Shown piece by piece: positions 8,047-20,828 of a stretch of DNA of 64,000 nt; the stretch's first letter is position 1; every line of letters starts with the position of its first letter. The stretch is from a virus. The translations under genes and the position numbers were made by a program. The notes under the pieces are model-generated. The model had not been told where the DNA came from, did no database searches, and worked only from the letters and a program-made list of their open reading frames with translations. The stretch lies in the IMG/VR virus record IMGVR_UViG_3300032308_002092, positions 87,208 through 151,207 of that record. One strand, 5' to 3'.

Positions 8047-8104
8047 GACTCGTCAGTCGCGTATACAACGCGAGACCAAGAGCGTGGCTACTCTTGGTTT
8101 CGTC
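8047..8104 (-). ncRNA. Type II hammerhead ribozyme 1
   Basis: Read on the minus strand: GAC (open helix II), GAAA, stem III CCAAGAG/CTCTTGG with an 8-nt loop, TC cleavage site, stem I TCGCG/CGCGA, CTGACGA, GTC closing helix II. The core differs from the commonest form only at position 7 (C for U), which hammerheads tolerate. It begins 1 nt after the stop codon of the 8106-8612 gene. Self-cleavage would separate that message from the downstream cistron. Confidence 0.88.
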
Positions 8105-8105
8105 T

Positions 8106-8612
8106 TTAGCCAACCAAAGCCCTAAGGTGCTCTGGGATTGAGGAGAGGTCGAGTTGCTTTGCTTTGTTTTGGCGAGGGGTCTTAGCTGGCTTGCTAGCTA
8201 CCATCTCAGCCCTAACATTAGCAATGAAGTTTTTCACTTCAACGATCTTAGTTTCTTCTGCGCCTGAAGCAATAAGATTCTTGAGTACCTCAGTTGCTTG
8301 CTTGATCTGTGGGTTAGTACGGCTACCAGGGTTTTTAGCTTCATACTTGCCGCCGCCGTTGATCTGAGGTGCCTTATTGAACCAGTTAGCTACGACGCTA
8401 GAAGCGTAAGACCTGAGTGCTTTGTCGTCATCTAGCTTACCAGCCGAGCGCTGTGCCAAGACGACTTCGCCAGAAATGAAGCCTTCAAGCATAAGGCTAA
8501 CGATCTCACGACGTTGCTCTTCAGTTACGTACGAAGAAATGGGGGCACTACTATTAAAACTAGAACCAAGGACCTGCTTAGTATACGTTACGACCGCTTC
8601 ATTTTGTTTCAT
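8106..8612 (-). CDS. Paralogous family A protein, copy 1
   Basis: 168 residues from ATG 8612; the longer frame back to 8636 lacks an SD, whereas AGGAG lies 8 nt before this ATG. It shares with the 16919-17365 and 20305-20754 products a helical EEQRREIVSLMLEGFISGEV segment, a central WFNKAPQINGGGKYEAKNPG / SR block, and a C-terminal LSSIPEHLRALVG. This copy has a longer insert (RSAGKLDDDKALRS) and an extra basic linker (KPAKTPRQNKAKQ). The central motif looks like a small nucleic-acid- or protein-binding module, but the function is unknown. It lies between hammerhead 2 (upstream) and hammerhead 1 (downstream). Confidence 0.8.
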   Translation of the reverse strand: MKQNEAVVTYTKQVLGSSFNSSAPISSYVTEEQRREIVSLMLEGFISGEVVLAQRSAGKLDDDKALRSYASSVVANWFNKAPQINGGGKYEAKNPGSRTNPQIKQATEVLKNLIASGAEETKIVEVKNFIANVRAEMVASKPAKTPRQNKAKQLDLSSIPEHLRALVG

Positions 8613-8637
8613 GGTAAAACTCCTATATAGAAACATT

Positions 8638-8692
8638 GACTCATCAGTGCTGGAACCTACCAGCAGATACCCTTGGTATCGGGTATTTCGTC
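8638..8692 (-). ncRNA. Type II hammerhead ribozyme 2
   Basis: Minus strand: GAC, GAAA, stem III TACCC/GGGTA with loop GATACCAA, TC, stem I TGCTGG/CCAGCA with loop TAGGTT, CTGATGA, GTC. All core residues are canonical. It sits 1 nt after the stop of the 8694-8909 gene and about 25 nt before the SD of family A copy 1. Stem III is nearly identical in hammerheads 4 and 6, while stem I differs by compensating changes. Confidence 0.93.
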
Positions 8693-8693
8693 A

Positions 8694-8909
8694 TTAGTCT
8701 ATTGCTGCGTAGTCATCTGGGAAGAAGGTTTCTTCTTCCATCTGACGGCTATTGAAGTCTAGCTGCTCATACACATCGTCTTCATAGTCGGACAAATAGA
8801 TATAATCTTGGTTGATTTGCACCGTGTTCACGACCATACCATCGGGCATAACCACGGTTGAATTAGGATCTTGTTGCGAAAGAATCTTAATGAGTTCTGA
8901 AACCAGCAT
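8694..8909 (-). CDS. Hypothetical acidic protein, 71 aa
   Basis: N-terminal LVSELIKILSQQDPNSTVVM resembles the start of small phage proteins with a helix then beta-hairpin; the rest is very acidic (SDYEDDVYEQLDF, FFPDDYAAID). SD GGAGG precedes ATG 8909. No defined function. Confidence 0.65.
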   Translation of the reverse strand: MLVSELIKILSQQDPNSTVVMPDGMVVNTVQINQDYIYLSDYEDDVYEQLDFNSRQMEEETFFPDDYAAID

Positions 8910-8934
8910 ATCAAACCTCCTTTATTTACTTGTG

Positions 8935-8953
8935 CATATTGATTCGGGAATCA
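8935..8953 (-). promoter_or_regulatory. TTCCCGA motif in a perfect hairpin
   Basis: TGATTC and GAATCA pair around the motif on the minus strand, followed by AATATG and, 15 nt later, the SD of the 8694-8909 gene. Confidence 0.4.
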
Positions 8954-9355
8954 TGACCTGAGTGTTAGTCTAGTTCCATCTGGCATCGTCGTATAGCTTA
9001 CGTCGGATGGTAAGGCACTGGTCACTCTAGTGAAGGTTTCTAGTTGCTTGCCTTTACCATCGAACGATCGCGCGCAGCCTGTGCCATCACACAAGATGAA
9101 TGAGTCTTGGTTGTAAGTCTGAGCCATGCTCTTCATCAAGTCAAACAACGACCAGCCTATGGTGTTAGGCGAACCACTTACAAGCCAAACATTCTCCATC
9201 TGATCTTTGTAAGATCCTCTGACGTACGTAGTTTTAAACCCATTCATCCTAATGAAGAAGCCTAGCTGCTCATGATCCTGCATATTTCTAATGTCGTCTT
9301 TGTCGCTTTTGTCTGCGGAGATCAGAGCGAAGATAGTATCTAAATCTAGTTTCAT
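8951..9355 (-). CDS. Hypothetical protein, 134 aa
   Basis: Mixed alpha/beta protein with GFFIRMNGFKTTYVRGSYKD and a Cys pair in CDGTGC; no family recognised. It starts 1 nt after the stop of a small membrane-protein gene. Confidence 0.65.
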   Translation of the reverse strand: MKLDLDTIFALISADKSDKDDIRNMQDHEQLGFFIRMNGFKTTYVRGSYKDQMENVWLVSGSPNTIGWSLFDLMKSMAQTYNQDSFILCDGTGCARSFDGKGKQLETFTRVTSALPSDVSYTTMPDGTRLTLRS

Positions 9356-9356
9356 G

Positions 9357-9518
9357 TTAACCCCACTTTCGTTTGTTTGCTAAAACACAAAGTACACCAA
9401 AGAATAAAGATATTAAGAACTTGAAAAAAGCATACTCAAGATTGCCGTTAATCAAATCAAACCATCCAAATACCTGTAGGAAGATACTTACGATAAACAG
9501 CGCGATGGCTAAGTTCAC
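9357..9518 (-). CDS. Two-helix membrane protein, 53 aa, GTG start
   Basis: GTG 9518 follows AAGGAGAG. Two hydrophobic helices (about 3-18 ALFIVSIFLQVFGWF and 32-47 FKFLISLFFGVLCVLA) with a basic C-terminus (NKRKWG). The GTG overlaps the stop of the 20-residue ORF upstream. Size and topology would suit a holin or holin modulator, but that is inference. Confidence 0.6.
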   Translation of the reverse strand: MNLAIALFIVSIFLQVFGWFDLINGNLEYAFFKFLISLFFGVLCVLANKRKWG

Positions 9519-9577
9519 TTGCCTCTCCTTACGATCAGGAGGATCGCGGTAATTATTTTCTTAAAAAAGTCAATCAT
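9515..9577 (-). CDS. 20-residue amphipathic cationic peptide
   Basis: ATG 9577 behind AAGGAGAGAAAG; the peptide is MIDFFKKIITAILLIVRRGK. Its end overlaps the next start (GTGA) and its start overlaps the previous stop. It looks like a short membrane-active helix of the toxin or phenol-soluble-modulin sort. Alternatively it only couples translation between neighbours. Confidence 0.45.
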   Translation of the reverse strand: MIDFFKKIITAILLIVRRGK

Positions 9578-9719
9578 CTTTCTCTCCTTCTTTTTCTGGG
9601 TGAAATTTATCGAGCACCTTAGCGAAGATCATCAGCAGCAGTACTGTTACTGCGAGCCCACCGATTATTGATATCGGTATCGCGACTCCAATAGCTATAA
9701 CGTAAAGCAATATACTCAT
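9570..9719 (-). CDS. Small membrane protein, 49 aa
   Basis: ATG 9719 overlaps the stop of the upstream gene (TAATG). One long hydrophobic helix (about 3-33) and a charged C-terminus (HPEKEGEKDD). First of three overlapping mini-genes encoding membrane peptides. Confidence 0.6.
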   Translation of the reverse strand: MSILLYVIAIGVAIPISIIGGLAVTVLLLMIFAKVLDKFHPEKEGEKDD

Positions 9720-9913
9720 TAGCTAACTTCCTCGCTTTCCTCGTAGATGTACCAGTCATTGGGCTTAAGACTAGCTGTCTTCTGCTCATACTCGTGTTTG
9801 CCGTATGAATACGCGAAGGCTCTGCCGTTCCAAACTATGAACGGAGCTGGGTGATCTTTGTGTGAGATCTTAGCTCCCTTGAGGGCCTCAATCAATGCTT
9901 CTTCTAGAGTCAT
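9719..9913 (-). CDS. Hypothetical protein, 64 aa
   Basis: Starts at ATG 9913 (GGAG 7 nt upstream) rather than at an in-frame TTG. Sequence MTLEEALIEALKGAKISHKD, then an aromatic beta-segment (FIVWNGRAFAYSYGKHEYEQ), suggests a compact domain like the small DUF proteins of other myoviruses. Function unknown. Confidence 0.65.
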   Translation of the reverse strand: MTLEEALIEALKGAKISHKDHPAPFIVWNGRAFAYSYGKHEYEQKTASLKPNDWYIYEESEEVS

Positions 9914-9915
9914 GA

Positions 9916-10056
9916 TCAGCTCCAATCGTTAGGGTCTTTGTTTTTGCCCTTGACTTCTTCGTAGAAGATAATACAAAGCAATCCCACCATGAAGATGCCA
10001 CCAAAGAAACCCGCTATAGAAATTGCAGCCATGAATCCTGTTAATGCTGAGTCCAC
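9916..10056 (-). CDS. Small membrane protein, 46 aa, GTG start
   Basis: GTG 10056 with AGGAGAG upstream. One transmembrane helix (GFMAAISIAGFFGGIFMVGL) extending into LLCIIFYEEV; the tail ends PNDWS, faintly like the PSDW ends of the Gly-rich family nearby. Confidence 0.55.
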   Translation of the reverse strand: MDSALTGFMAAISIAGFFGGIFMVGLLCIIFYEEVKGKNKDPNDWS

Positions 10057-10060
10057 GATA

Positions 10061-10411
10061 TTACTCTCCTAGTATTTGTTGCTCTATTTGTTGCGTCATA
10101 TATTTGTCTAACGTGAACTGAATAACATGGTTGTGAACATCTTTTACCTTTAGATAAACCGAATGAGGTGTTAGATCGCCTCTTGAATTCAGATAGCAGT
10201 TCGCTACTAGCTTAAAGGAATAAGGGGTTTTTGGATGTTTTATGGTCTTAGATACTGTGGTGTACGACTTACCTTTTCGCTTAGCACACTCTTTAACAGC
10301 ATAATGGTAGTGAGAGATAAGGGCGTCTAGGGTAAATTCGCTGCCTTCTACTGGACCCAGGCTTAGGTCTATGATTGTTCTATGCTCTCCAGTAACCGTA
10401 AATAAACACAT
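10061..10411 (-). CDS. Hypothetical protein, 116 aa
   Basis: Beta-rich with a Lys-rich loop (CAKRKGKSYTTVSKTIKHPK) and a helical C-terminus (YMTQQIEQQILGE). No family recognised; start ATG 10411 lacks a strong SD. Confidence 0.6.
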   Translation of the reverse strand: MCLFTVTGEHRTIIDLSLGPVEGSEFTLDALISHYHYAVKECAKRKGKSYTTVSKTIKHPKTPYSFKLVANCYLNSRGDLTPHSVYLKVKDVHNHVIQFTLDKYMTQQIEQQILGE

Positions 10412-10441
10412 GTTGCTAACCCCTACTCGTTATCGTTGAAT

Positions 10442-10460
10442 AGTATTGGTTTCGGATACT
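10442..10460 (-). promoter_or_regulatory. ATCCGAAAC motif in a short hairpin
   Basis: AGTAT / ATACT can pair around CCGAAACCA on the minus strand, in the gap upstream of the 10061-10411 gene. Confidence 0.4.
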
Positions 10461-10696
10461 CACTTAAGGTCTTGTGTCTCTGAGTAGAGAAGGTGTGACA
10501 TAGAGTCCATCACCACAAGAGTACTCTGCTTGCCATACTTAGACACCATGTCTGCCTTGAGGGAGCGAAACTCAGCTCTACACTTCTCTCGCTCTGCGAC
10601 TTCTCTGAAGTATTGTCTACCCTCGGCGGCCTCGTAGTAAGAGAGATCAGCTATGGATACTATAAATTTTTTGATTAGCTCGCAATTGTAGTTCAT
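10460..10696 (-). CDS. Hypothetical protein, 78 aa
   Basis: Starts at ATG 10696, 7 nt after TTGGAGG; the frame further upstream reads through the leader hairpin. Charged helical protein (YYEAAEGRQYFREVAEREKC). No family recognised. Confidence 0.6.
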   Translation of the reverse strand: MNYNCELIKKFIVSIADLSYYEAAEGRQYFREVAEREKCRAEFRSLKADMVSKYGKQSTLVVMDSMSHLLYSETQDLK

Positions 10697-10703
10697 GCAA
10701 CCT

Positions 10704-10727
10704 CCAATAAGATATTGGATCGGGATC
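10704..10727 (-). promoter_or_regulatory. CCCGA motif and SD-adjacent hairpin
   Basis: The minus strand reads GATCCCGAT, then a 6-bp hairpin CCAATA/TATTGG (loop TCT, 10704-10718) that runs into AGG of the SD for the 10460-10696 gene. Confidence 0.5.
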
Positions 10728-10956
10728 ACCTATCGGATGGGTTGCCGTGGCCGTTATCGCATAAGTCTTCTCCACAGCCAGCGCCACCGCCACACCCATC
10801 ACCATAACCGTTGCCATCGCCATAGCCATCACCACTAGGGCTGCAATTACTTAAACCACAGCCATAACCATCGCCGCTTTTCTTAATATAGTTGTCACCA
10901 TTGGGTCTACCGTAATGGTAACCGTAGCTAAAACCATCTATTTCTAGAGATTCCAC
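10726..10956 (-). CDS. GDGYG-rich protein, family G copy 1
   Basis: 76 residues, GTG start. After the family N-terminus (SLEIDGFSYG) the chain is Gly/Asp/Tyr/Cys-rich with GDGYG and GYGDG units and no hydrophobic core; it ends NPSDR. Eight Cys distinguish it from most siblings. Composition suggests a disordered or calcium-binding, RTX-like chain, but the nonapeptide spacing of true RTX repeats is missing. Function unknown. Confidence 0.75.
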   Translation of the reverse strand: MESLEIDGFSYGYHYGRPNGDNYIKKSGDGYGCGLSNCSPSGDGYGDGNGYGDGCGGGAGCGEDLCDNGHGNPSDR

Positions 10957-10962
10957 GATAGC

Positions 10963-11181
10963 TCACCAATCAGATGGGTAGTGATCGAACCGATCTTCGG
11001 TGCCACTACCGCAACCATCACCATACTCATCGCTATGTCCATCACCTCTGCCATAACCGTCGCCGTCAGCAGTGCCACCACTTAAACCCCAACCATCACC
11101 ATCGCTGTAAGTATGACTATCGCCGTTGGCCATGCCGTAACGATCGCCGTAACCAAAAGCATCTATTTTTAGAGATTTCAT
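10963..11181 (-). CDS. GDGYG-rich protein, family G copy 2
   Basis: 72 residues beginning MKSLKIDAFGYG and ending HYPSDW. The middle carries GDGWG, GDGYG and GDGHS units. It lies 6 bp upstream of copy 1, so the two are co-transcribed. It has Ala where the family Gly follows the Asp. Confidence 0.75.
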   Translation of the reverse strand: MKSLKIDAFGYGDRYGMANGDSHTYSDGDGWGLSGGTADGDGYGRGDGHSDEYGDGCGSGTEDRFDHYPSDW

Positions 11182-11201
11182 GGTTTATTCTCAGTCTGAG
11201 A

Positions 11202-11537
11202 TTAAAGCCACTTATTCAAGTCAGCTTTCATCACAAAGATATCCTTACCGAAGATCGTACCAGCTTCGTTTAGCACAGTCTCAGCCTGAGGACCTTCGAC
11301 GCACAGCTGGCCGAGACCCTTGGTCGTACCCCATCGGTGGATGTTGTAGGCGTTGTCAAGCCTGATTCTCTCGCTGGAGAGGCGAGTAACGAAGCCGATG
11401 AATACCCAACCGCGATCCATGACTGCGATGACTAGATCGCCGTTCTCATAGTCAAGCTTAGGCTGAGGTGCGCCTCGCAAAGACTCCTCAACCTGACTGT
11501 TGATTACATAATTACCGAATAACTTACTCTTAGCCAT
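11202..11537 (-). CDS. Hypothetical beta-barrel-like protein, 111 aa
   Basis: Strong AAAGGAGG SD. The sequence DYENGDLVIAVMDRGWVFIG / FVTRLSSERIRLDNAYNIHRW has the alternating pattern of a small SH3/Sm-like barrel; WGTTKGLGQL follows, then a helical end. Many myoviruses carry such small barrels of unknown role. It interrupts the family G series. Confidence 0.7.
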   Translation of the reverse strand: MAKSKLFGNYVINSQVEESLRGAPQPKLDYENGDLVIAVMDRGWVFIGFVTRLSSERIRLDNAYNIHRWGTTKGLGQLCVEGPQAETVLNEAGTIFGKDIFVMKADLNKWL

Positions 11538-11560
11538 AATAAACCTCCTTTGTTTCTGTC

Positions 11561-11578
11561 TATATTTATATCGGAAAT
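11561..11578 (-). promoter_or_regulatory. TTTCCGATATAAATA site
   Basis: The minus strand has TTTCCGA directly followed by TATAAATA, matching the -10 region of T4-type late promoters by eye, 30 nt upstream of ATG 11537. Confidence 0.45.
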
Positions 11579-11594
11579 GATACTCTGTGGACCG

Positions 11595-11675
11595 TTACAA
11601 TCCTCTTTCGCTGTTATACATCAGAAATACAATCGCAACAGTGAAACCAAGTATAAGTAGCGCAAATACACTCAT
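11595..11675 (-). CDS. 26-residue membrane peptide
   Basis: ATG 11675 overlaps the upstream stop (TAATG). Almost entirely one hydrophobic helix (VFALLILGFTVAIVFLM) with a short YNSERGL tail. Too small to classify. Confidence 0.5.
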   Translation of the reverse strand: MSVFALLILGFTVAIVFLMYNSERGL

Positions 11676-11890
11676 TAAGAAATCTCGCTTGCTTCTACGT
11701 ATTGGCTGAAGATTTCTGGGTATCTTTGTACGTAACCGTTGTCTTCTAGGAAGTAGTACAGAGCTACACCAGGTGGTACTTCGTCATCGAAGTTGCTCCG
11801 CCAAGCGTAGTCTTCGAAGTCACTCGTAGTTAATCCCGTGACCTTAACACACAGCTTATCTACTTTGTTCATGTAAGACTTGAAAGACAT
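11675..11890 (-). CDS. Hypothetical protein, 71 aa
   Basis: Acidic, helical with aromatic residues (DFEDYAWRSNFDDEVPPGVA, LYYFLEDNGYVQRYPEIF). Coupled to the 26-residue membrane peptide. No family recognised. Confidence 0.6.
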   Translation of the reverse strand: MSFKSYMNKVDKLCVKVTGLTTSDFEDYAWRSNFDDEVPPGVALYYFLEDNGYVQRYPEIFSQYVEASEIS

Positions 11891-11923
11891 ACAAACCCCT
11901 TATTGAAGACACCCCATCGTTGG

Positions 11924-11947
11924 GATATATAATCTGGTTTCGGGATT
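11924..11947 (-). promoter_or_regulatory. TCCCGAAAC motif with AT-rich box
   Basis: The minus strand reads AATCCCGAAACCAGATTATATA downstream of family G copy 3 and about 35 nt upstream of the 11675-11890 gene. Confidence 0.4.
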
Positions 11948-11948
11948 C

Positions 11949-12143
11949 TCACCAGTCTGATAGATCATCGTAGCCATAACAGTCACCGTAGCTCTCTCCA
12001 TCACCATTTCCATAGCCGTATCCGCTACCACTACCGTCGTATTCTGTAATGATGATGATATTAGGGCCTTCAGAGCCGCTGTCGCCGTCACCGTTATAGT
12101 GGCCGTCACCACAACCCCAGCCATCTATTTCTAGCTTGTCCAT
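11949..12143 (-). CDS. GDGYG-rich protein, family G copy 3
   Basis: 64 residues, shortest of the seven: MDKLEIDGWGCG at the start, DDLSDW at the end. Unlike its siblings it carries a hydrophobic insert (PNIIIITEY) in the middle, followed by GSGSGYGYGNGDG. Confidence 0.75.
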   Translation of the reverse strand: MDKLEIDGWGCGDGHYNGDGDSGSEGPNIIIITEYDGSGSGYGYGNGDGESYGDCYGYDDLSDW

Positions 12144-12149
12144 TGCTCT

Positions 12150-12389
12150 TCACTTATCTGACGGGCCGTGATGGCCCTTGCCACTGCCATCTCCAACAAC
12201 GAGATCTTGCCCCAGACAATTTAGATCATAACCATAGCCATCGCCATTAGGGAGGCTGTCTCCGTAGCCACAGCCATACCTCTCTCCATCGTAGCCATAA
12301 CCATAGTTCCCATGGACACCACTGCCATCGCCGCAGAAGTAACCGTGAAAGCGTCCATAACCTAAGCCGTCTATGTCTAGCTTGTCCAT
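12150..12389 (-). CDS. GDGYG-rich protein, family G copy 4
   Basis: 79 residues: MDKLDIDGLGYG start, GPSDK end. The central part contains NYGYGYDGERYGCGYGD and NGDGYGYD. It is 6 bp from copy 3. The C-terminal Trp of the other copies is Lys here. Confidence 0.75.
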   Translation of the reverse strand: MDKLDIDGLGYGRFHGYFCGDGSGVHGNYGYGYDGERYGCGYGDSLPNGDGYGYDLNCLGQDLVVGDGSGKGHHGPSDK

Positions 12390-12392
12390 GGT

Positions 12393-12689
12393 TTATGCTT
12401 TACGCTTCTTCTTTTGGCCGTCTTTGATGGCCTGAACCTCTGCTTGGTCAAGCGGGACACCGTGGCGGTACCAGCTATCACCCCACACCGCGCCGTCTTC
12501 CCAGTAGGTTATAGCAGGGCTACCCTCACGATGTAACCTACCTTGGCAATACCAATACTCGGTGTCTACCTTGCCGTCTTCGCTATAGTAGACAATGGCA
12601 GGGCCATCCACACGATGTGGAACACCCTCCTCCAGGTATCGCTCGGACTCTACCTTACCGTTTTCGTAGTGTTTCTTAACGCACTCCAT
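12393..12689 (-). CDS. MORN-like repeat protein
   Basis: 98 residues with three imperfect repeats of about 20-25 residues: YENGKVESERYLEEG, then PHRVDGPAIVYYSEDGKVD / YWYCQGRLHREGSPAITYWED. The HR-x-DGPA-x-x-Y-x-DG pattern is common in phage and bacterial MORN-variant proteins, which form beta-hairpin ladders. A basic tail (KDGQKKKRKA) ends it. It lies inside the family G cluster and may act with it, though this is only position-based. Confidence 0.7.
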   Translation of the reverse strand: MECVKKHYENGKVESERYLEEGVPHRVDGPAIVYYSEDGKVDTEYWYCQGRLHREGSPAITYWEDGAVWGDSWYRHGVPLDQAEVQAIKDGQKKKRKA

Positions 12690-12701
12690 AAATCTCCTTG
12701 A

Positions 12702-12941
12702 TTACCAATCTGAAGGCATGTCATGATCATCACCTGAACCCCAGCCGTTGCCGTGGTTGTAGGACGTATCACCATAGCCAACACCATCGCGATAAATTGG
12801 GTGATAGCCACGACCATGGAGATCACTGCCACCATTGCCCCAGCCATCCCCACTCGCCATGGAGTATTCACCTTCTCCCTCGCCGTTACCATCCCACCAA
12901 CAGTCTGGTGAGCCGTCGCCATCTATGTCTAGCTTTTCCAT
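12702..12941 (-). CDS. GDGYG-rich protein, family G copy 5
   Basis: 79 residues: MEKLDIDGDGSPDCWWDGNG, with a Trp-rich N-terminal part, then GDGWGNGGSD and GVGYGDTSY; ends MPSDW. This copy has more Trp and His than its siblings. Confidence 0.75.
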   Translation of the reverse strand: MEKLDIDGDGSPDCWWDGNGEGEGEYSMASGDGWGNGGSDLHGRGYHPIYRDGVGYGDTSYNHGNGWGSGDDHDMPSDW

Positions 12942-12948
12942 AAGTTAG

Positions 12949-13215
12949 TTACCAATCTGAGGGTTCTAAATCTTCCCCATCACCAGCACCATCTCCACCG
13001 GTGTCGCCACCAGAACCGTCGCAATAACCATCACCGCCGAGGGTGGTATAACCGCTGCCTCTTCCGTCGCCGGTTCCAGTGCCGCAGTCGCCGTCGCCAT
13101 AGCGATCGTCTGGTATAGAGGGGCTATAGCAACCTATACCGCCGTCCCCATTAGGGGACGTTCTGTCTACACCACAACCAAATCCATCCACAGCGAGCTT
13201 GCTTTCTAATATCAC
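12949..13215 (-). CDS. GDGYG-rich protein, family G copy 6
   Basis: 88 residues from GTG 13215; ESKLAVDGFGCG aligns with the family start, and LEPSDW ends it. The body is GDG/GTG/GGD-rich with fewer Tyr, and is the most RTX-like of the set (GGDGYCDGSGGDTGGDGAG). Confidence 0.75.
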   Translation of the reverse strand: MILESKLAVDGFGCGVDRTSPNGDGGIGCYSPSIPDDRYGDGDCGTGTGDGRGSGYTTLGGDGYCDGSGGDTGGDGAGDGEDLEPSDW

Positions 13216-13227
13216 TTAATATGTCCT

Positions 13228-13461
13228 CTACCAGTCAGAAGGGTCACCCTCAGGCTGTATCTCATGGAATTGGATGAATGTCATAGAATCGGATTTTGTG
13301 AGTTCGTGTTCGCCGTAGCCATAGCCGTCACCATTTGGTTTGGTTCTGCCTATGAAGCTATCTGGCGTTTTTACGCCCTCTCCAAAGCCGTCGCCATGTA
13401 TCCTACCGTATTGACCATAGCCGTAGCCAACTCCGTCTACGATCGTCTCGCCTATCTTCAT
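13228..13461 (-). CDS. GDGYG-rich protein, family G copy 7
   Basis: 77 residues: MKIGETIVDGVGYGYGQYG start, GDPSDW end. The C-terminal third (KSDSMTFIQFHEIQPE) is ordinary sequence not seen in the other copies. Its start codon lies in a 37-bp direct repeat whose second copy is at 13891-13927. Confidence 0.75.
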   Translation of the reverse strand: MKIGETIVDGVGYGYGQYGRIHGDGFGEGVKTPDSFIGRTKPNGDGYGYGEHELTKSDSMTFIQFHEIQPEGDPSDW

Positions 13462-13487
13462 GGGTCCTCATATCCATTAAAGCTGCC
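13451..13487. repeat. 37-bp direct repeat, copy 1
   Basis: Covers the start of family G copy 7 and the end of the 13458-13862 gene. It matches 13891-13927 with one mismatch (tgggtcc against taggtcc). Confidence 0.85.
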
Positions 13488-14993: not shown

Positions 14994-15023
14994 ACTCAAG
15001 GGTCTGATGCCCACTTCCCACCC

Positions 15024-15233
15024 CTACTTAAACTTACAGCTCAAACCAGCTTTATTCAGGCCGTTATATCTATAGCAAATCACTTCGCTATTCTCTAGTC
15101 TGTACACACCAAAACCAACCGCCTTAGCTTCGCTAAAGCCATACTCACCGTCAACACCTCCATCAACGTTAGGCTCAGATACCCTAAAAGTACATCCGCT
15201 CAATACAATCAATCCAACCACTAGCACCTTCAT
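15024..15233 (-). CDS. Small lipoprotein, 69 aa
   Basis: Signal peptide MKVLVVGLIVLSGC with a classic lipobox (LSGC, Cys14); mature part of 56 residues with two Cys (VICYRYNGLNKAGLSCKFK). GGGAGGGG SD. Small phage lipoproteins can be o-spanins or superinfection-exclusion proteins; the lack of a Pro-rich segment and of a partner i-spanin leaves this undecided. Confidence 0.7.
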   Translation of the reverse strand: MKVLVVGLIVLSGCTFRVSEPNVDGGVDGEYGFSEAKAVGFGVYRLENSEVICYRYNGLNKAGLSCKFK

Positions 15234-15264
15234 AAACCCCTCCCCACAATTACCCTACAACTAT

Positions 15265-15284
15265 CCATTATCAATTCGGAATCC
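15265..15284 (-). promoter_or_regulatory. ATTCCGAAT motif upstream of the lipoprotein
   Basis: The minus strand reads GGGATTCCGAATTGATAATG, with the TTCCGA core followed by TGATAAT. Spaced about 30 nt from ATG 15233. Confidence 0.42.
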
Positions 15285-16262
15285 CATACCTTACCTTCCC
15301 CAAACCCTGGGTGGAAGATATAGTAACCGCCGTAACTAACTTATAAACCCCTAAAATAACCTCTTATAACAACCTATACCCACCTATACCCAGTTATAAC
15401 TACCTACTAATCCCTATACCCTCAAATACCCTAATCCCCTACGTAACTACTACTATTAGATACACTTAAGTGCCAAAACCTACCGTAACTAACACGTACG
15501 TATCACCTTAACCCCATACCATTCCCAACCAACCACCTATACCAGTTAGTAGCACGAAAGGGATAGGGAGTGGACTGGTAGAGTTATAGTGATAATGATC
15601 CTCACCATTACTATAGGAAAGACATAAAAACTATAGTGATTTAACTAGCCTAGGGCGAGCCTATAGGCAGGTTGTTTCCGCCCACAACTATCCCTACTCT
15701 CGCAACAACATCTCTCACTTGTGGCCACGCCGCGGTAACCTATAGGGTTACAAATCACCACGGTTTTGCCCACCTATAGGTTTACAGGTCGGGTATCCTG
15801 CTCCCTCCTACCCTATCCCTACAGATACCTCCCGGGTGGTTTGCGTGTTGTCCTAGGGGTAAATCGGGTGTCGAGGAAATCATTAGGCTTTTTGGTAGTT
15901 GGGTTGGGAATGGTGCTTTCCCCTAGGGGTAAAATGAGATAGGTGGGTGGCTTTGTTGATATTGCTAGAGATTTTAGTTTCGGGATGATAGGAGTGAGAG
16001 AAGTCCTAGGGAGTTTTGCTCGTTTTAGGGCTTCGGGTGTGGGGCGTAGCAGTGTCAGGTGGTTTGGTGGGGTTGTTGGGCTACGGGGTGGGATAATGAT
16101 ATCAGTGAGTTACGGGTGTTTTGGTGGCGCGAGTTGGTGCGCTTAGGGCTGGGGGTTTATATACACTTTTATTTTGTGGTCTTGAGTTGTAGTTGGGAGA
16201 GTAGGATAAGTAGGGTGCGAATTCAAGTTGTTTGGGGGTGGCTATGATAAGCCCGTAGCCCA
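15285..16262. other. Gene-free region with base-skew inversion and palindromes
   Basis: About 1 kb without a convincing gene. On the plus strand 15361-15540 has only 8 G in 180 nt and repeats CCTATACC; 15961-16140 has only 18 C. Between them lie CCTATAGG palindromes at 15660, 15739 (inside a longer GTAACC/GGTTAC inverted repeat, 15735-15751) and 15773, a related ACTATAGG at 15610, and CCTAGGGG-type sites at 15852, 15922 and 16005. Copy b of the 17-nt element is at 16042. Such iterated palindromes at a skew switch fit a replication origin or master control region. No database-like motif (DnaA box) is evident. Confidence 0.55.
16042..16059 (-). repeat. 17-nt intergenic element, copy b
   Basis: Plus strand gggcgtagcagtgtcagg. 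The flank shares ttcgggtg with copy c. Confidence 0.7.
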
Positions 16263-16263
16263 A

Positions 16264-16506
16264 TCAGACTATATACTCTTCGTCTAGTGGCTCATCGTAT
16301 AGGTGAGCTATGGAGTGCCATGGTCCTGGGACTGTGAAGAGGTCTAAGTTGCCAGAGCGTATAGCGTGAGCCTTAGCCATAGCTTCGTCCATGTCAGAGT
16401 GAGAGGAAACTACCCACGTCACTAGGTTGTGGACTTCGGAATCCACCTTCACGATAGTGTCGAAAGTAGAGTGGTCGTACATCACGAAGTACCTAATAGG
16501 TTGCAT
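16264..16506 (-). CDS. Hypothetical protein, 80 aa
   Basis: Start ATG 16506 after AAGGAGACT. Compact alpha/beta pattern (IRYFVMYDHSTFDTIVKV, DEAMAKAHAIRSGNLDLF), acidic end. It is the first gene left of the 16.3-kb boundary. No family recognised. Confidence 0.65.
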   Translation of the reverse strand: MQPIRYFVMYDHSTFDTIVKVDSEVHNLVTWVVSSHSDMDEAMAKAHAIRSGNLDLFTVPGPWHSIAHLYDEPLDEEYIV

Positions 16507-16518
16507 AACATAGTCTCC

Positions 16519-16590
16519 TTACTTAATGGACAAGTTAATGAAGATGAGAGTCATTATCAACAAGAATATAGCCGCTGTGCCTGGATCCAT
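16519..16590 (-). CDS. 23-residue membrane peptide
   Basis: ATG 16590 overlaps the upstream stop (TGATG). Nearly all hydrophobic (AAIFLLIMTLIFINLSI). Its stop adjoins the SD of the next gene. Confidence 0.5.
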   Translation of the reverse strand: MDPGTAAIFLLIMTLIFINLSIK

Positions 16591-16805
16591 CACTCTGTCT
16601 CTTCCACGGTTATGGTGTAGGACTTGTCGTACTGGTCCTTCACTATGATGGTGCGCTTAGGTGACCTAAAGCTACCGTCTTCGTTTAAGTCCATCTTTAT
16701 CTCTACGTTCCTGAGCTTTATCTCAGTCGCCTTAGGTATGGCCGCAGTGATCACATGAGTGATATAGTCGCAGTATGCTAATCTCAACCCGCTTGACTTA
16801 AACAT
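16590..16805 (-). CDS. Hypothetical protein, 71 aa
   Basis: Beta-strand-rich (KLRNVEIKMDLNEDGSF, RTIIVKDQYDKSYTITVEE). AAGGAGG SD in a leader that begins at hammerhead 3. No family recognised. Confidence 0.65.
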   Translation of the reverse strand: MFKSSGLRLAYCDYITHVITAAIPKATEIKLRNVEIKMDLNEDGSFRSPKRTIIVKDQYDKSYTITVEETE

Positions 16806-16819
16806 AGTCGTTCCTCCTT

Positions 16820-16842
16820 ATATAGGGGATGGTATCGGAAAC
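16820..16842 (-). promoter_or_regulatory. TTTCCGATACC motif after hammerhead 3
   Basis: Follows the 3' end of hammerhead 3 by 3 nt on the transcript and precedes TATATAAGGAGG, the SD region of the 16590-16805 gene. Confidence 0.42.
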
Positions 16843-16844
16843 CG

Positions 16845-16905
16845 GACTCATCAGCATGGCTATCAGCCATGGACCTAGGATCTCGAGCGAGTCCTAGGTT
16901 TCGTC
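16845..16905 (-). ncRNA. Type II hammerhead ribozyme 3
   Basis: Minus strand: GGAC, GAAA, stem III CCTAGGA/TCCTAGG with an 11-nt loop, TC, stem I CATGGC/GCCATG with loop TGATA, CTGATGA, GTCC. Helix II has four pairs. It lies 13 nt after the stop of family A copy 2. Confidence 0.92.
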
Positions 16906-16918
16906 CTCGGTTACGGAC

Positions 16919-17365
16919 TTATCCCACCAGGGATCTCAAGTGCTCGGGTAGTGCGGAGAGGTCCACAGTCTTGGCAGCAGACTTAGGCTGTGGGCGGTTA
17001 GCTTCAATGAACGCTTCGAGCTCAGCTGTAACTTCAGATCCCTTAGCGATCAGAGCCGCTTTGAGAGCTAGAGCTTGCTTGAACTCTGGGCTACCAGATC
17101 GGCTACCAGGGTTCTTGACTTCGTGCTTGACCCCACCGTTGAGGGCAGGTGACTTACGGAGCCAGTTGCTGAGCAGACCTGAAGCGTAGCTTCGCGCCTT
17201 AGCTTCGCTGTACTCCTTGCTCAAGCTGATCTCTCCGTTCATGAGTCCCGCTACGAGCATACCGATTGCTTCCTTGCGTTGCTCACTAGTTAGGGTGACT
17301 GCTTCCGCAGTTACTCCAACGATTGACTGTACGATCTCTACGACTGCCTTTGATTGTGACTTCAT
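16919..17365 (-). CDS. Paralogous family A protein, copy 2
   Basis: 148 residues from ATG 17365 (GGAG 8 nt upstream). Shares SEQRKEAIGMLVAGLMNGEI-like and NWLRKSPALNGGVKHEVKNP / GSRSG blocks and the ALPEHLRSLVG end with the other two copies. Contains K/E-rich helices and no insert, closest to copy 3. Preceded by hammerhead 4 and followed by hammerhead 3. Confidence 0.8.
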   Translation of the reverse strand: MKSQSKAVVEIVQSIVGVTAEAVTLTSEQRKEAIGMLVAGLMNGEISLSKEYSEAKARSYASGLLSNWLRKSPALNGGVKHEVKNPGSRSGSPEFKQALALKAALIAKGSEVTAELEAFIEANRPQPKSAAKTVDLSALPEHLRSLVG

Positions 17366-17384
17366 ATGTAACACTCCTTAATTA

Positions 17385-17439
17385 GACTCATCAGTGCCAG
17401 AACCTACTGGCAGATACCCTTGCTATCGGGTATTTCGTC
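17385..17439 (-). ncRNA. Type II hammerhead ribozyme 4
   Basis: Same stem III as hammerheads 2 and 6 (TACCC/GGGTA, loop GATAGCAA); stem I is TGCCAG/CTGGCA with loop TAGGTT. Compared with hammerhead 2, both sides of stem I changed together. Helix II AGAC/GTCT. Cleavage would leave a short 5' leader with the SD of family A copy 2. Confidence 0.93.
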
Positions 17440-17444
17440 TTAAG

Positions 17445-17594
17445 TTACCGACAGTAGTGATCGGCGTAGTTGCAGTAGAAGTCATAGACTTCGTCGTCAG
17501 TCCACGAGTCACAAGAGTAGTCTACGTCATCGTTTCCCGCTGCGATCATCTGAGCGAGGATGATGTTCACCGTAGTGCGAAGCGAACCTCTCAT
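17445..17594 (-). CDS. Hypothetical protein, 49 aa
   Basis: ATG 17594 after GGAGTGCTTCAT. A hydrophobic N-terminal helix (TTVNIILAQMIAAG) followed by a Cys/Asp/Tyr-rich tail (DYSCDSWTDDEVYDFYCNYA). It ends 6 nt before hammerhead 4. Confidence 0.6.
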   Translation of the reverse strand: MRGSLRTTVNIILAQMIAAGNDDVDYSCDSWTDDEVYDFYCNYADHYCR

Positions 17595-17630
17595 ATGAAG
17601 CACTCCTTGGTTAATCAACCTTGGTTGGTT

Positions 17631-17655
17631 GATAGTTATATATGGTATCGGGAAA
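17631..17655 (-). promoter_or_regulatory. TTTCCCGATACC motif, AT-rich box
   Basis: Minus strand: TTTCCCGATACCATATATAA, upstream of the 17445-17594 gene. Confidence 0.42.
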
Positions 17656-17701
17656 CTGGGGCTGCATCGGATCGTGGGGCCGAGGTGTGGGTTCGGGTGC
17701 T

Positions 17702-17718
17702 GGGCGTAGCAGTGTCGG
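17702..17718 (-). repeat. 17-nt intergenic element, copy c
   Basis: Plus strand gggcgtagcagtgtcgg, one change from the other copies; flank ttcgggtgctggg matches copy b. Confidence 0.7.
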
Positions 17719-17741
17719 GCTTCACGCAGACACCCTCGGTA

Positions 17742-17924
17742 TCACTCCAGACCCTTGCAGGAGCTAGCGTCGTTGCTCTCGTTGGCCTGACAAGCCACGT
17801 ACTTCTCGCTGCTTTCCTTGGAGTTAGCCACCGAGATCTCACCTACTACGTTGATGGAGGTGTTGACTACAACTCCGCCCACGATAGCGTACACACAGTA
17901 CAAGACCACTAGTTCGATGCCCAT
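17742..17924 (-). CDS. Small membrane protein, 60 aa
   Basis: N-terminal helix (IELVVLYCVYAIVGGVVV) and a hydrophilic tail with two Cys (YVACQANESNDASSCKG). AAGGGG SD. Function unknown. Confidence 0.6.
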   Translation of the reverse strand: MGIELVVLYCVYAIVGGVVVNTSINVVGEISVANSKESSEKYVACQANESNDASSCKGLE

Positions 17925-17963
17925 TATAATGCCCCTTATAAACCTTAAAGCCCACTTAAACTG

Positions 17964-17984
17964 CCATTCTAATAGCTAGAATGG
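17964..17984 (-). terminator. 8-bp hairpin between 17742 and 18017 genes
   Basis: CCATTCTA/TAGAATGG with a 5-nt loop. It could be an attenuator; no U-tract follows on the minus strand. Confidence 0.4.
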
Positions 17985-18016
17985 TATTCTAAAATCTAGT
18001 ATGTTATACTTTGCCC

Positions 18017-18334
18017 TTACCCCGGCAAGTTCTGCTTGTAGTACAAGTCACCCCAGTCGATGTAGAAGTCCTCGACCTTAGCGTGATCCCAAGCGTCGGA
18101 CCACAGCTTGATATCCTCGTAGCTATCCATGCTCATCTCCCTGCCAGTCACCAACTTAAAGGCATCGTTCATGAACATATTAGCGTCTACGTAGTCATGC
18201 GAAGCGCACTCATGCTTATGGTTGTGCTTGTTAGCTTCGCATATATCAACCATAGTGGCTAGACCAAGCTCAGCCATCAGTAACTCGGAGAACTTTTCTG
18301 CTATCTGTTCGTGTAGCTCTACTTCGAAATCCAT
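18017..18334 (-). CDS. Hypothetical His/Asp-rich protein, 105 aa
   Basis: Acidic helical protein with a His cluster (ANKHNHKHECASHDYVDANM) that could bind a metal. Ends QNLPG, like the preceding 51-residue protein (DNLPG), so the ends may share ancestry. Confidence 0.65.
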   Translation of the reverse strand: MDFEVELHEQIAEKFSELLMAELGLATMVDICEANKHNHKHECASHDYVDANMFMNDAFKLVTGREMSMDSYEDIKLWSDAWDHAKVEDFYIDWGDLYYKQNLPG

Positions 18335-18337
18335 CGT

Positions 18338-18493
18338 TCACCCCGGTAAGTTGTCTAGTATAAAGTTAAGCTCTTCTACTACTTCGTCGGAAACAGGTTG
18401 ATCTAGTGCCTCATCAGGTACATCTGGGTAGTATTCCAGCTTGAATTCGTCCCAAGCGAACTGCATTAACTGTCTAAGCGTAAGTTCGTTCAT
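18338..18493 (-). CDS. Hypothetical acidic protein, 51 aa
   Basis: ATG 18493 overlaps the upstream stop (ATGA). Sequence MNELTLRQLMQFAWDEFKLE, ending FILDNLPG. Small helical protein, function unknown. Confidence 0.6.
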   Translation of the reverse strand: MNELTLRQLMQFAWDEFKLEYYPDVPDEALDQPVSDEVVEELNFILDNLPG

Positions 18494-18699
18494 TGTCCAC
18501 CTCTTTCTTCTAAGGCTTGATACACTCGCTTCAGTAGCTCTGTGGGTTCGGTATAGAAATCATCCTTATCTAACTGCACCATATCCAGGTTTATCAGCGC
18601 CTGACTGAACCTCATATCGGGATAGGTCCTCAAGTAGGTCTCTAGTATCCGTAGTAGCTCCAAGTTAGCATGTAGTCGGACGCTCGTTGGTTGACTCAT
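18490..18699 (-). CDS. Hypothetical protein, 69 aa
   Basis: AGGAGG SD. Helical, with VRLHANLELLRILETYLRTY resembling the dimerisation helices of small regulators; no DNA-binding motif seen. Confidence 0.6.
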   Translation of the reverse strand: MSQPTSVRLHANLELLRILETYLRTYPDMRFSQALINLDMVQLDKDDFYTEPTELLKRVYQALEERGGQ

Positions 18700-18716
18700 A
18701 ATAACCTCCTAGTTAC

Positions 18717-18738
18717 ATATAGATATAGATTCGGATAC
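18717..18738 (-). promoter_or_regulatory. ATCCGAATC motif with ATATCTATAT
   Basis: Minus strand: GTATCCGAATCTATATCTAT, 15 nt before the SD of the 18490-18699 gene. Confidence 0.42.
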
Positions 18739-18743
18739 GACTA

Positions 18744-18920
18744 TCAGAACCACTCACCCTTTCTTACAATCACCACTCTACTCGCTGTATTGACTATCAT
18801 CGCTCTTCTCCTTCTGCCATCGGAGAAGTATCTCATAGCCTCTTGTAAAGCAGAGAATGAGTGTATAGTCATGAAAGACCGTGCATCAGTTGAGCCGTGC
18901 CAAACCTGAACTTGATACAT
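18744..18920 (-). CDS. Hypothetical protein, 58 aa
   Basis: Start ATG 18920 (GGAG 6 nt upstream) preferred to the in-frame 18932 start. Pattern YQVQVWHGSTDARSFMTIHS then a helix and DGRRRRAMIVNTASRVVIV, a compact beta-alpha-beta domain. Function unknown. Confidence 0.6.
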   Translation of the reverse strand: MYQVQVWHGSTDARSFMTIHSFSALQEAMRYFSDGRRRRAMIVNTASRVVIVRKGEWF

Positions 18921-18936
18921 AATAAACTCCAATGTG

Positions 18937-18960
18937 TAAGAGAACTTTGTTATTCTCTTA
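18937..18960 (-). promoter_or_regulatory. 8-bp leader hairpin
   Basis: TAAGAGAA/TTCTCTTA around an 8-nt loop, 10 nt upstream of the SD of the 18744-18920 gene. Confidence 0.5.
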
Positions 18961-19012
18961 TTAATAATATATAGTTACGGGAATTAAATTCCCCTGGGCG
19001 TAGCAGTGTCAG
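18960..19012 (-). repeat. Composite repeat: 17-nt element copy d plus AT-rich box
   Basis: Core tgggcgtagcagtgtcag at 18995-19012, preceded on the plus strand by attaataatatatagtt and a cggg motif. About 50 nt are homologous to 20221-20271. On the minus strand the order is element, hairpin (GGGAA/TTCCC), CCCGTAACTATATATT. Confidence 0.75.
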
Positions 19013-19019
19013 ATAGTGG

Positions 19020-19025
19020 TATAAT
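19020..19025 (+). promoter_or_regulatory. TATAAT box for the plus-strand gene at 19048
   Basis: tggTATAATACCC, 22 bp before the ATG, the same form as the late boxes of the right arm; no -35 match. Confidence 0.55.
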
Positions 19026-19047
19026 ACCCTTAGGTTAAGGAGAACAC

Positions 19048-19524
19048 ATGGAAAAGCTAATCAAGCATAGCAACGGGCAGTGGACACTAGTTAAGGCCAA
19101 GGACACTAGTAAGCACGGCAACTTCGGTGGTGGTAACTCCTTTGACGGAGGAGACCAGTATGTCCCCTCTAAAGAGGGTATTGCAGCAAACGCGGCTAGA
19201 GCAGCGGAGCAGAAACGCCTAGAAGCAGAAGCGAGCGCAGTATCGGCTGCACACAAAGATGTAGCCGACAGAGGCGAAGTTCGCCGACGCACCGAGCCGC
19301 CGAAAACCGTAGAAGATCACCCACTACACGGCGAGTTAGTTAATCACTTCAAGAACAAGCATGGGTTGGACCATCACGCTGCGTTTGCTGCGGCTACTCA
19401 TGTCATGACTTCGGGCCTCGGCGAAAAGACTCATGAAAGTGACTCAGATAAAGCAGCTACTGGTTCTGGAGCAGCCGAGGCCAAGAAGATCCTGGCTGGT
19501 AAGGTTAAGACCAAGATCTCTTAG
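19048..19524 (+). CDS. Isolated plus-strand gene, 158 aa
   Basis: The only plus-strand gene in the left arm. AAGGAGAAC SD and its own TATAAT box. Composition is Ala/Lys/Glu/Gly-rich, with a Gly-rich N-terminal segment (GNFGGGNSFDGGDQYVPSKE), a helical middle, and HHAAFAAATHVMTSGLGEKT near the C-terminus. Late-type promoter and composition suggest a virion-associated or scaffold-like protein; this is inference. Confidence 0.7.
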   Translation: MEKLIKHSNGQWTLVKAKDTSKHGNFGGGNSFDGGDQYVPSKEGIAANAARAAEQKRLEAEASAVSAAHKDVADRGEVRRRTEPPKTVEDHPLHGELVNHFKNKHGLDHHAAFAAATHVMTSGLGEKTHESDSDKAATGSGAAEAKKILAGKVKTKIS

Positions 19525-19529
19525 TCGTC

Positions 19530-19796
19530 TTATATAAGACCTTGTTCACTCAGTTGCTTCATCAGTGAATCATCATTCTTAGACCCAAAGACTCTCACTA
19601 CATCCTCATAATCACATAGTTCATCGGGGTCGTCGTGACATACGAACGCTAGTCCTTCGACTGTCTTCCACACTGAGAACTCATATATGCAGTGAACTCC
19701 TGTCTCTACGTAACCATCAGGTTCAGTGATTGAGCCATCGAACATCTTCCCCGCTTCTAACTCTGCAACAAGTTGATCGACTGTGAACTTACTCAT
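19530..19796 (-). CDS. Paralogous family B protein, copy 1
   Basis: 88 residues. Shares the plan of the 19873-20139 product: MSKxTVxxLxxxL start, TGVHCIYEFSVWKTVEGLAF, HDDPDELCDYEDVVRVF, and a C-terminal LMKQLSEQGLI. Acidic, small alpha/beta protein of unknown function. Its leader begins at hammerhead 5. Confidence 0.75.
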   Translation of the reverse strand: MSKFTVDQLVAELEAGKMFDGSITEPDGYVETGVHCIYEFSVWKTVEGLAFVCHDDPDELCDYEDVVRVFGSKNDDSLMKQLSEQGLI

Positions 19797-19814
19797 AGTG
19801 ACTCCTTAAAGTTA

Positions 19815-19872
19815 GACTCATCAGTGTGACTCTTAGTCACAGACTATCTTCGTTTCGGAAGATAGTTTCGTC
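19815..19872 (-). ncRNA. Type II hammerhead ribozyme 5
   Basis: Minus strand: AGAC, GAAA, stem III CTATCTTC/GAAGATAG with loop CGAAAC, TC, stem I TGTGACT/AGTCACA with loop AAG, CTGATGA, GTCT. It adjoins the stop of family B copy 2 directly. The stem III hairpin itself contains TTCCGAAAC, the recurring intergenic motif of this arm. Confidence 0.93.
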
Positions 19873-20139
19873 TTATGCGAGACCTACTGCACTCAGCTGC
19901 TGATCAAGAGTGTCGTCTTCCTTATCCTCCTCGAAGAACCGCTTGACATCGTCGTAAGTTAGTATCTCATCGGGGTCTTCAGTGCATATGAACCTCAAAC
20001 CTTCGTCAGTGTCCCACACCTCGAAGTCGTATATGGAGTGAACACCGGTGCTCACGCCTCCGTGTGACAGGAACTCACCTGCAGTTAGTCTACCATCGGC
20101 GATCGCTTCTTCTAACTCTCTGACTGTGATCTTACTCAT
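19873..20139 (-). CDS. Paralogous family B protein, copy 2
   Basis: 88 residues: VRELEEAIADGRLTAGEFLS, TGVHSIYDFEVWDTDEGLRF, TEDPDEILTYDDVKRFFEED, ending LDQQLSAVGLA. About half of the residues match copy 1 without gaps, showing a tandem duplication with hammerhead 5 at the junction. Function unknown. Confidence 0.75.
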   Translation of the reverse strand: MSKITVRELEEAIADGRLTAGEFLSHGGVSTGVHSIYDFEVWDTDEGLRFICTEDPDEILTYDDVKRFFEEDKEDDTLDQQLSAVGLA

Positions 20140-20162
20140 GACTTCTCCTCATGTTGTTCACA

Positions 20163-20182
20163 CATTAATAGAATCGGAAAAC
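20163..20182 (-). promoter_or_regulatory. TTTTCCGATTC motif
   Basis: Minus strand: TTTTCCGATTCTATTAATG, about 25 nt upstream of the family B copy 2 start. Confidence 0.42.
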
Positions 20183-20218
20183 ACACTAATAAATATTTAA
20201 GTTTTTCAACTCATTTAT

Positions 20219-20271
20219 TTATTAATAATATATAGTTTCGGAAACTATATCCCTGGGCGTAGCAGTGTCAG
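20219..20271 (-). repeat. Composite repeat: 17-nt element copy e plus palindromic box
   Basis: Core tgggcgtagcagtgtcag at 20254-20271. On the minus strand it is followed by a 9-bp hairpin (ATATAGTTT/AAACTATAT) with CCG in the loop, then ATATTATTAATAA. Upstream a GC-rich hairpin GGGTGCGGGC/GCCCGTACCC follows the stop of family A copy 3. Confidence 0.75.
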
Positions 20272-20298
20272 TGGGTACGGGCACCACGCCCGCACCCA
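20272..20298 (-). terminator. GC-rich hairpin after family A copy 3
   Basis: GGGTGCGGGC pairs with GCCCGTACCC (loop GTGGT; one mismatch) a few nt after the stop codon; no U-tract, the 17-nt element follows. Confidence 0.5.
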
Positions 20299-20304
20299 AC
20301 TCAC

Positions 20305-20754
20305 TTAGCCAACCAACTTCTGGAGGTGCTCGGGAAGCGCTGAGATATCCACGGTCTTCTCGGTCTTCACCGGAGCGTTGGCTGCGATGAACATCAGGAG
20401 CCCAGTAGGAATCTCCTTGCCTTGCTCAGCCAAGTACTTCTTAAGCGCGATCGCTTGCTTGTACTCATTGCTCCCACTTCGTGAGCCTGGGTTCTTAGCT
20501 ACGTACTTCACTCCGCCATTCAACTCGGGCGACTTACGTACCCAGTTGTCCAGCAGTCCCACCGAGTAACTCCTCATCTTCTCGGGAGTGTCGTGCTTAG
20601 CCCGAGCACCCGCGCTCATATCAATCTCACCATCAACCAAGCCTTGTGTGATCAGAGTCAAGCACTCTTCTTTCTGCTCCTTGGTCAACTTAACTCCGGG
20701 AGTAAATCCCTCGATCCCACTCACGATCGCTACGACTGCATCTACTTGCTTCAT
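20305..20754 (-). CDS. Paralogous family A protein, copy 3
   Basis: 149 residues from ATG 20754, behind GGAGTGTTAC as in copy 2. KEECLTLITQGLVDGEIDMS, then NWVRKSPELNGGVKYVAKNP / GSRSGSNEYKQAIALKK, and ISALPEHLQKLVG at the end. Preceded by hammerhead 6; its 3' flank holds a hairpin and copy e of the 17-nt element instead of a ribozyme. Confidence 0.8.
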   Translation of the reverse strand: MKQVDAVVAIVSGIEGFTPGVKLTKEQKEECLTLITQGLVDGEIDMSAGARAKHDTPEKMRSYSVGLLDNWVRKSPELNGGVKYVAKNPGSRSGSNEYKQAIALKKYLAEQGKEIPTGLLMFIAANAPVKTEKTVDISALPEHLQKLVG

Positions 20755-20773
20755 GTAACACTCCTTAAAGTTA

Positions 20774-20828
20774 GACTCATCAGTGCAACCACTTAGTTGC
20801 AGATACCCTTGCTATCGGGTATTTCGTC
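20774..20828 (-). ncRNA. Type II hammerhead ribozyme 6
   Basis: Stem III TACCC/GGGTA with loop GATAGCAA as in hammerhead 4; stem I TGCAAC/GTTGCA, changed on both sides compared with hammerheads 2 and 4. Core GAAA, TC, CTGATGA intact. It lies 1 nt after the stop of the 20830-20955 gene. Confidence 0.93.

Follow-up and report, generated by a model that had tools for sequence, protein, structure and literature searches.

In a 64-kb stretch of viral DNA (hereafter the window), which is the right-hand 64 kb of the 151,207-base record IMGVR_UViG_3300032308_002092, six type II hammerhead ribozymes (HHRs) lie between genes on the transcribed, minus strand of one phage arm. Judging from their sequence and placement, they probably serve as intercistronic cutters that would divide a polycistronic messenger RNA (mRNA) into units for single genes or short blocks.

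Six type II hammerheads in one phage arm

A sequence-only reading had placed six type II hammerheads in this arm. When the minus strand was read directly, all six copies agreed with that reading letter for letter at the coordinates it gave. In every copy the order of elements was GAC, GAAA, a stem III hairpin, TC, a stem I hairpin, CTGA[T/C]GA and GTC. A fourth stem II pair, variable among the copies (A-U, U-A, G-C or G-U), lengthens each of them by one base per side. The stems were completely paired in 6/6 copies, with 4 bp in stem II, 5–8 bp in stem III and 6–8 bp in stem I. The invariant core (CUGANGA, GAAA, and UH before the cleavage site) was likewise present in all six, and helices I and III were closed by loops while helix II was open, which is the type II layout. 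The stem I covariation that had been claimed between copies 2, 4 and 6 was seen in the aligned stems: TGCTGG/CCAGCA, TGCCAG/CTGGCA and TGCAAC/GTTGCA, respectively.

A strict structural scan of the 64 kb returned exactly these six matches. The same scan returned two matches in total from 200 simulated windows (first-order Markov, same dinucleotide make-up), a chance expectation of about 0.01 per window. We also used a covariance model, R1, trained on 49 HHRs from other phages and on no sequence of the window. R1 scored the six copies at 50.9–57.5 bits (E = 1.5e-16 to 2.8e-14), and the next match in the 151-kb record had 13.2 bits. Neither the R1 search of the whole record nor an additional run over 30 kb with the filters off gave a credible match besides the six. 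Neither the window nor the remainder of the record nor the loci of the gene A family described below contained a hammerhead of type I or III. For copies 2, 4 and 6 the minimum-energy fold predicted in context was the whole hammerhead, and for copies 1, 3 and 5 it had stems I and III only.

Position among genes and proposed cutting

Each copy lies between the stop of one gene and the next transcribed gene, as the sequence-only reading had it. Stop codons were found 0–12 nucleotides (nt) upstream of the HHRs in 6/6 cases, and the next same-strand starts were 17, 18, 18, 24, 38 and 69 nt downstream, the longest distance belonging to copy 1.

Copy 1 (8046–8105, predicted cut 8074/8073; R1 50.9 bits, E = 2.8e-14) follows the stop of gene A1 and precedes a GACACTGCTACG element and the gene at 7188–7976. 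Copy 2 (8637–8693, predicted cut 8666/8665; R1 55.1 bits) abuts the stop of the gene at 8694–8909 and lies 24 nt before gene A1. Copy 3 (16844–16906, predicted cut 16872/16871; R1 57.5 bits) lies between gene A2, whose stop is 12 nt upstream, and the gene at 16590–16805, whose start is 38 nt downstream. Copy 4 (17384–17440, predicted cut 17413/17412; R1 55.2 bits) is 4 nt past the stop of the gene at 17445–17594 and 18 nt before gene A2. Copy 5 (19814–19873, predicted cut 19842/19841; R1 51.5 bits) separates two small minus-strand genes: upstream an open reading frame (ORF) with its translation (19873–20139), and downstream an ORF with a Shine-Dalgarno (SD) sequence (19530–19796), the two being paralogues by inspection. 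Copy 6 (20773–20829, predicted cut 20802/20801; R1 52.9 bits) abuts the stop of the gene at 20830–20955, 18 nt before gene A3.

The same geometry was found in other phages. For the HHRs of the window and of ten array loci, which were picked for containing arrays, 52 of 66 had a stop within 20 nt upstream together with an SD sequence and a start within 60 nt downstream, versus 5% of random same-strand positions. In a broader set (144 among the matches listed), HHRs clear of called genes had same-strand neighbours in about 90% of cases, versus about 50% for random positions. Among the matches listed, all HHRs were on one strand in 29 of 29 loci with more than one. This strict succession of stop, HHR, SD sequence and start is an addition to published work.

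In the mechanism that we propose, each HHR would fold while the minus-strand polycistronic RNA is being synthesised and would cut itself once, after the UC between stems III and I. The upstream message would then have the stem III hairpin at its 3′ end, terminated by a 2′,3′-cyclic phosphate. The downstream message would begin with a 5′-OH on a 6-bp stem I hairpin, 45–97 nt before the start codon (45–66 nt in five of the six). Every gene or short block would thereby be carried on a separate mRNA whose ends are uniform and capped by hairpins, and would be insulated from the adjacent genes. What the phage probably gains is control over how stable each mRNA is, the HHR doing the work of a terminator plus leader while transcription continues. 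In general, ends with a 5′-OH resist decay that depends on a 5′-monophosphate, and 3′ hairpins slow exonucleases.

The earlier reading had the HHRs divide a polycistronic early mRNA into units with 5′-OH ends. Cutting is retained here as the best reading, one already published for such clusters in 2011 (PMC3088659), but the word "early" is not supported; the same arm also holds a phage lysozyme gene (21908–22444). Together with a tail sheath homologue in the window, a distant relative of the sheath of Myxococcus phage Mx1, this gene marks the record as that of a contractile-tailed phage.

Relatives, arrays and the Rfam model

Relatives were collected from a viral collection by a sequence-only pattern; the counts from this collection are lower bounds. 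Both hairpins were closed in 97 of 134 distinct pattern matches listed, versus 6 of 26,800 shuffles of the inner letters. The helices covary: in the alignment of relatives, whose rows were pre-selected for pairing, 15 of 16 pairs showed changes on both sides and 99.5% of the cells were paired. Nucleotide 7 of stem-loop I was U in 116 of 133 relatives listed and in all six copies here.

Six copies within one genome had been regarded as striking. Other records hold at least 7 to 11, with whole-record counts of at least 11, 9, 8 and 8, so that six is neither unique nor the maximum. The arrays run gene, HHR, gene, HHR, with nearly one HHR per gene and spacings of 225–1979 nt (median 577); the spacing is wider in this window. 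In other phages, unrelated genes also follow HHRs, with the same geometry. In locus L152 (genome G008), ten hammerheads, or 11 by covariance model, occupy 4.8 kb (1928–6743) at about one per gene, and the array ends directly upstream of a DNA helicase gene; locus L156 has the same helicase arrangement. Two strains that have names and can be cultured, Phycicoccus jejuensis NRRL B-24460 and Streptomyces iakyrus NRRL ISP-5482, contain triple arrays and could serve for work at the bench. The records of six cultured phages reached via distant similarity (Appa, NC1, NatB6, MellowYellow, Mx1 and Cece) contained no HHR.

Scores above the threshold of the Rfam type II model had been named as support for the six motifs, and formally this check fails for all of them. 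At gathering scores, Rfam gave no match anywhere in the window or in the remainder of the record. Under lax settings, RF02276, whose cut-off is 37 bits, listed two copies, copy 4 (29.4 bits) and copy 2 (26.1 bits), but none of the other four. This cut-off is a curators' threshold and not a biochemical definition. In six array loci, RF02276 passed only 1 of 38 HHRs. Since so few array HHRs pass and R1 gives the six copies 51–57 bits, the failure reflects the model more than the motifs: RF02276 covers this type II subclass poorly, and the motifs are not false on that account. The copies share with the RF02276 ribozymes the core, the opening of helix II, the cut after UC, a loop I that starts with U past a 6-bp stem I, and the intergenic setting in phages or bacteria; they differ in their poor Rfam score and in having a clear pseudoknot between loop I and the 3′ tail in copies 1 and 6 only.

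The gene A family and the history of the ribozymes

Copies 2, 4 and 6 each precede one member of a paralogous gene family on the minus strand, gene A, and copies 1 and 3 follow A1 and A2. A1 (8106–8612, 168 amino acids) and A2 (16919–17365, 148 amino acids) have hammerheads on both sides. A3 (20305–20754, 149 amino acids) has a hammerhead upstream, and a GC hairpin and a GACACTGCTACG element downstream. Identity to A1 is 44% for A2 and 37% for A3. The family has the motif NWxRKxxxLNGGVKYExKNPGSR, and homologues were found in 18 viral loci. Gene A had no Pfam match and no convincing match in PHROGs. Against cultured phages, neither a megablast search nor a tblastn search with gene A gave a match. 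The predicted model of the gene A protein is helical; it had no match in PDB, and the one convincing structural match was to an uncharacterised phage protein.

The HHRs of copies 2, 4 and 6 are 80–88% identical to one another, with stem III and its loop shared, while the gene A paralogues downstream of them are 56–61% identical. Judging from these identities, HHR and gene A have duplicated together or exchanged sequence. The same pattern would be expected if the ribozymes were evolutionary hitch-hikers that do nothing for the phage and are carried along by duplicating or mobile gene cassettes such as the gene A family. This explanation seems improbable to us. The cores are intact in 6/6 copies and the stems are fully paired, with compensatory changes in stem I of copies 2, 4 and 6; moreover, the geometry recurs before unrelated genes elsewhere, and neutral passengers would not keep it. 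In a distant phage (L149), an HHR with wholly different stems (stem II GGTC/GACC) stands at the corresponding position ahead of the gene A homologue. A near-identical record (L134) gave no divergence information.

Downstream of gene A in several of the relatives that have no HHR there, and after A3, a GC hairpin is followed by GACACTGCTACG. After A1, an HHR occupies the place of the hairpin before GACACTGCTACG. This replacement suggests that an HHR can take over 3′-end formation. The presence of a cutter ahead of all three gene A paralogues and of a distant homologue, and of an HHR in place of the GC hairpin of relatives, are additions made here.

Weighing intercistronic cutting against the alternatives

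The following observations weigh against the use of the six HHRs as intercistronic cutters. First, all six score below the Rfam gathering score, as described above. Second, type II ribozymes typically have a pseudoknot between loop I and the 3′ tail, and here only copies 1 and 6 show it clearly. Four Watson-Crick pairs are possible in copy 1 (UGUA/UACA) and copy 6 (AAGU/ACUU), and the other copies have three or need a G-U pair. Complementarity of 4 bp was reached by 20% of the relatives, versus 12% after permutation, among the matches listed. Third, no HHR lies near fourteen other homologues of gene A, so that the HHR is dispensable for this gene. Fourth, the predicted accessibility of the SD sequence is nearly equal before and after cleavage. 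A translation switch is therefore not supported, and defined, protected ends and insulation are a likelier purpose of the cut.

An alternative about as improbable as the hitch-hiker explanation is that the piece between two HHRs becomes circular or spliced mRNA. Such a piece would carry a 5′-OH, a 2′,3′-cyclic phosphate and pairable stem II halves (GUC/GAC), and could be ligated through reversal of the cleavage or with a ligase. The possibility was already raised in 2011 (PMC3088659), the end chemistry suits RtcB, and in the window any 5′ half can pair with the next 3′ half by 3–4 bp. In many other arrays, however, neighbouring stem II halves are mismatched, although every ribozyme's own stem pairs. 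In L152, 3 of 9 neighbours have 1 bp only, as do 5 of 7 in L156, and mismatch was also seen in L157, L158, L160, L161 and L024. No RtcB or PF09414 RNA ligase was found in this record, with a host RtcB as a possible substitute, and the authors of 2011 saw no circular or spliced product (PMC3088659). Because the halves of array neighbours often mismatch and the record is without RtcB or a PF09414 ligase, circularisation is unlikely as a general purpose; it is conceivable in this window, where the halves are interchangeable. Stem II pairing in the other arrays argues against obligatory circularisation, and this evidence is an addition here.

It is less probable still that the HHRs are gated by a ligand or a protein, with regulated cleavage making the array a switch. 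Loop III of copies 2, 4 and 6 has the sequence GATA[G/C]CAA, conserved beyond what pairing needs, which is in favour of gating. This loop is different in copies 1, 3 and 5 and in the relatives, a recent common origin explains its sharing, and the compact hairpin loops leave no room for an aptamer. That the motifs arose by chance or are decayed and inactive is very improbable given a chance expectation near zero and R1 E values of about 1e-14 or lower, even though the scores are below the Rfam gathering score and cleavage is here predicted from sequence.

Other sequence elements of the arm

Five near-identical TGACACTGCTACGCC elements were found on the minus strand (8026–8040, 16043–16057, 17703–17717, 18997–19011 and 20256–20270). 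They often stand after a GC hairpin and 14–50 nt before a CCGANNCTATA-like sequence, an AT-rich stretch and an SD sequence, and they are also repeated beside gene A homologues in many viral contigs (L133–L148). They are perhaps a phage promoter or an element at the boundary of transcription units. The one at 8026–8040 (TGACACTGCTACGGC), directly after HHR copy 1, is a candidate boundary element of this kind. A second motif, CCGANNCTA, occurred seven times on the minus strand of positions 1–22.6 kb (for example, at 20241, 20177, 18734, 20987 and 15983), versus none on the plus strand. Several copies are 25–45 nt ahead of a start codon, and the motif is a candidate phage promoter. A promoter-like CCGATACCA within stem III of copy 2 was discarded, as matches to so loose a pattern are, by estimate, at about chance level. 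Scans with sigma-70 and terminator consensus patterns gave no more matches than shuffled sequence.

The proteins encoded by three small adjacent genes at 12700–13461 are repeat-like, rich in Gly and Asp, and share a C-terminal SDW. About 1 kb of the minus arm without evident genes (15240–16260, between 15233 and 16264) contains many short TATAGG/GGTATAG repeats and is possibly a regulatory or origin-like region.

Comparison with known systems and implications

Natural type II hammerheads were discovered by Perreault et al. 2011, who often found more than one of them around a single prophage gene or short block and who proposed transcript cutting; a triple array around ardA in Agrobacterium tumefaciens was cleaved in vitro and in E. 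coli (PMC3088659). HHRs conforming to the consensus were active in 14 of 18 tests (PMC3088659). As clusters, the idea of cutting and cleavage in vivo were all published in 2011, the present finding is a further clean case of a known kind. It resembles the published prophage clusters in that several same-strand HHRs flank single genes or short blocks, and differs in that the phage is contractile-tailed and its 151-kb record has six HHRs spread across 13 kb, whereas the published case compared here is a triple.

Two other systems are comparable in part. In E. coli, RiboJ, an engineered insulator made of an HHR and a hairpin, increased transcript levels about twofold and protein levels two- to tenfold (PMC6206723). 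Like the HHRs here, it is a hammerhead upstream of a ribosome-binding site whose product begins with a hairpin, and it shields its gene from what lies upstream, as the HHRs here would; unlike them, it was built from the hammerhead of sTRSV satellite RNA and sits after promoters and not between cistrons. Retrozymes and viroid-like RNAs (PMC6155905) also have a transcribed unit with a hammerhead on either side. Here, by contrast, there is no repeated identical unit, circular replicon or ligase, and the units are ordinary phage genes.

In a 2017 review, the function of bacterial and phage hammerheads was still counted as open (PMC6155905). Judged on the open-licence literature, the extent of the arrays (at least 11 HHRs, about one per gene) and the blind spot of Rfam seem under-described. 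Since the Rfam type II model misses nearly all of this subclass, phage annotation understates how frequent RNA self-cleavage is in phage messages. Arrays with about one hammerhead per cistron might, we tentatively suggest, be a widespread and mostly unannotated strategy of phage gene expression, in which the cutter replaces terminator and leader and inserted accessory genes bring their own insulated mRNA ends. The stop-ribozyme-SD-start arrays make HHR function directly testable.

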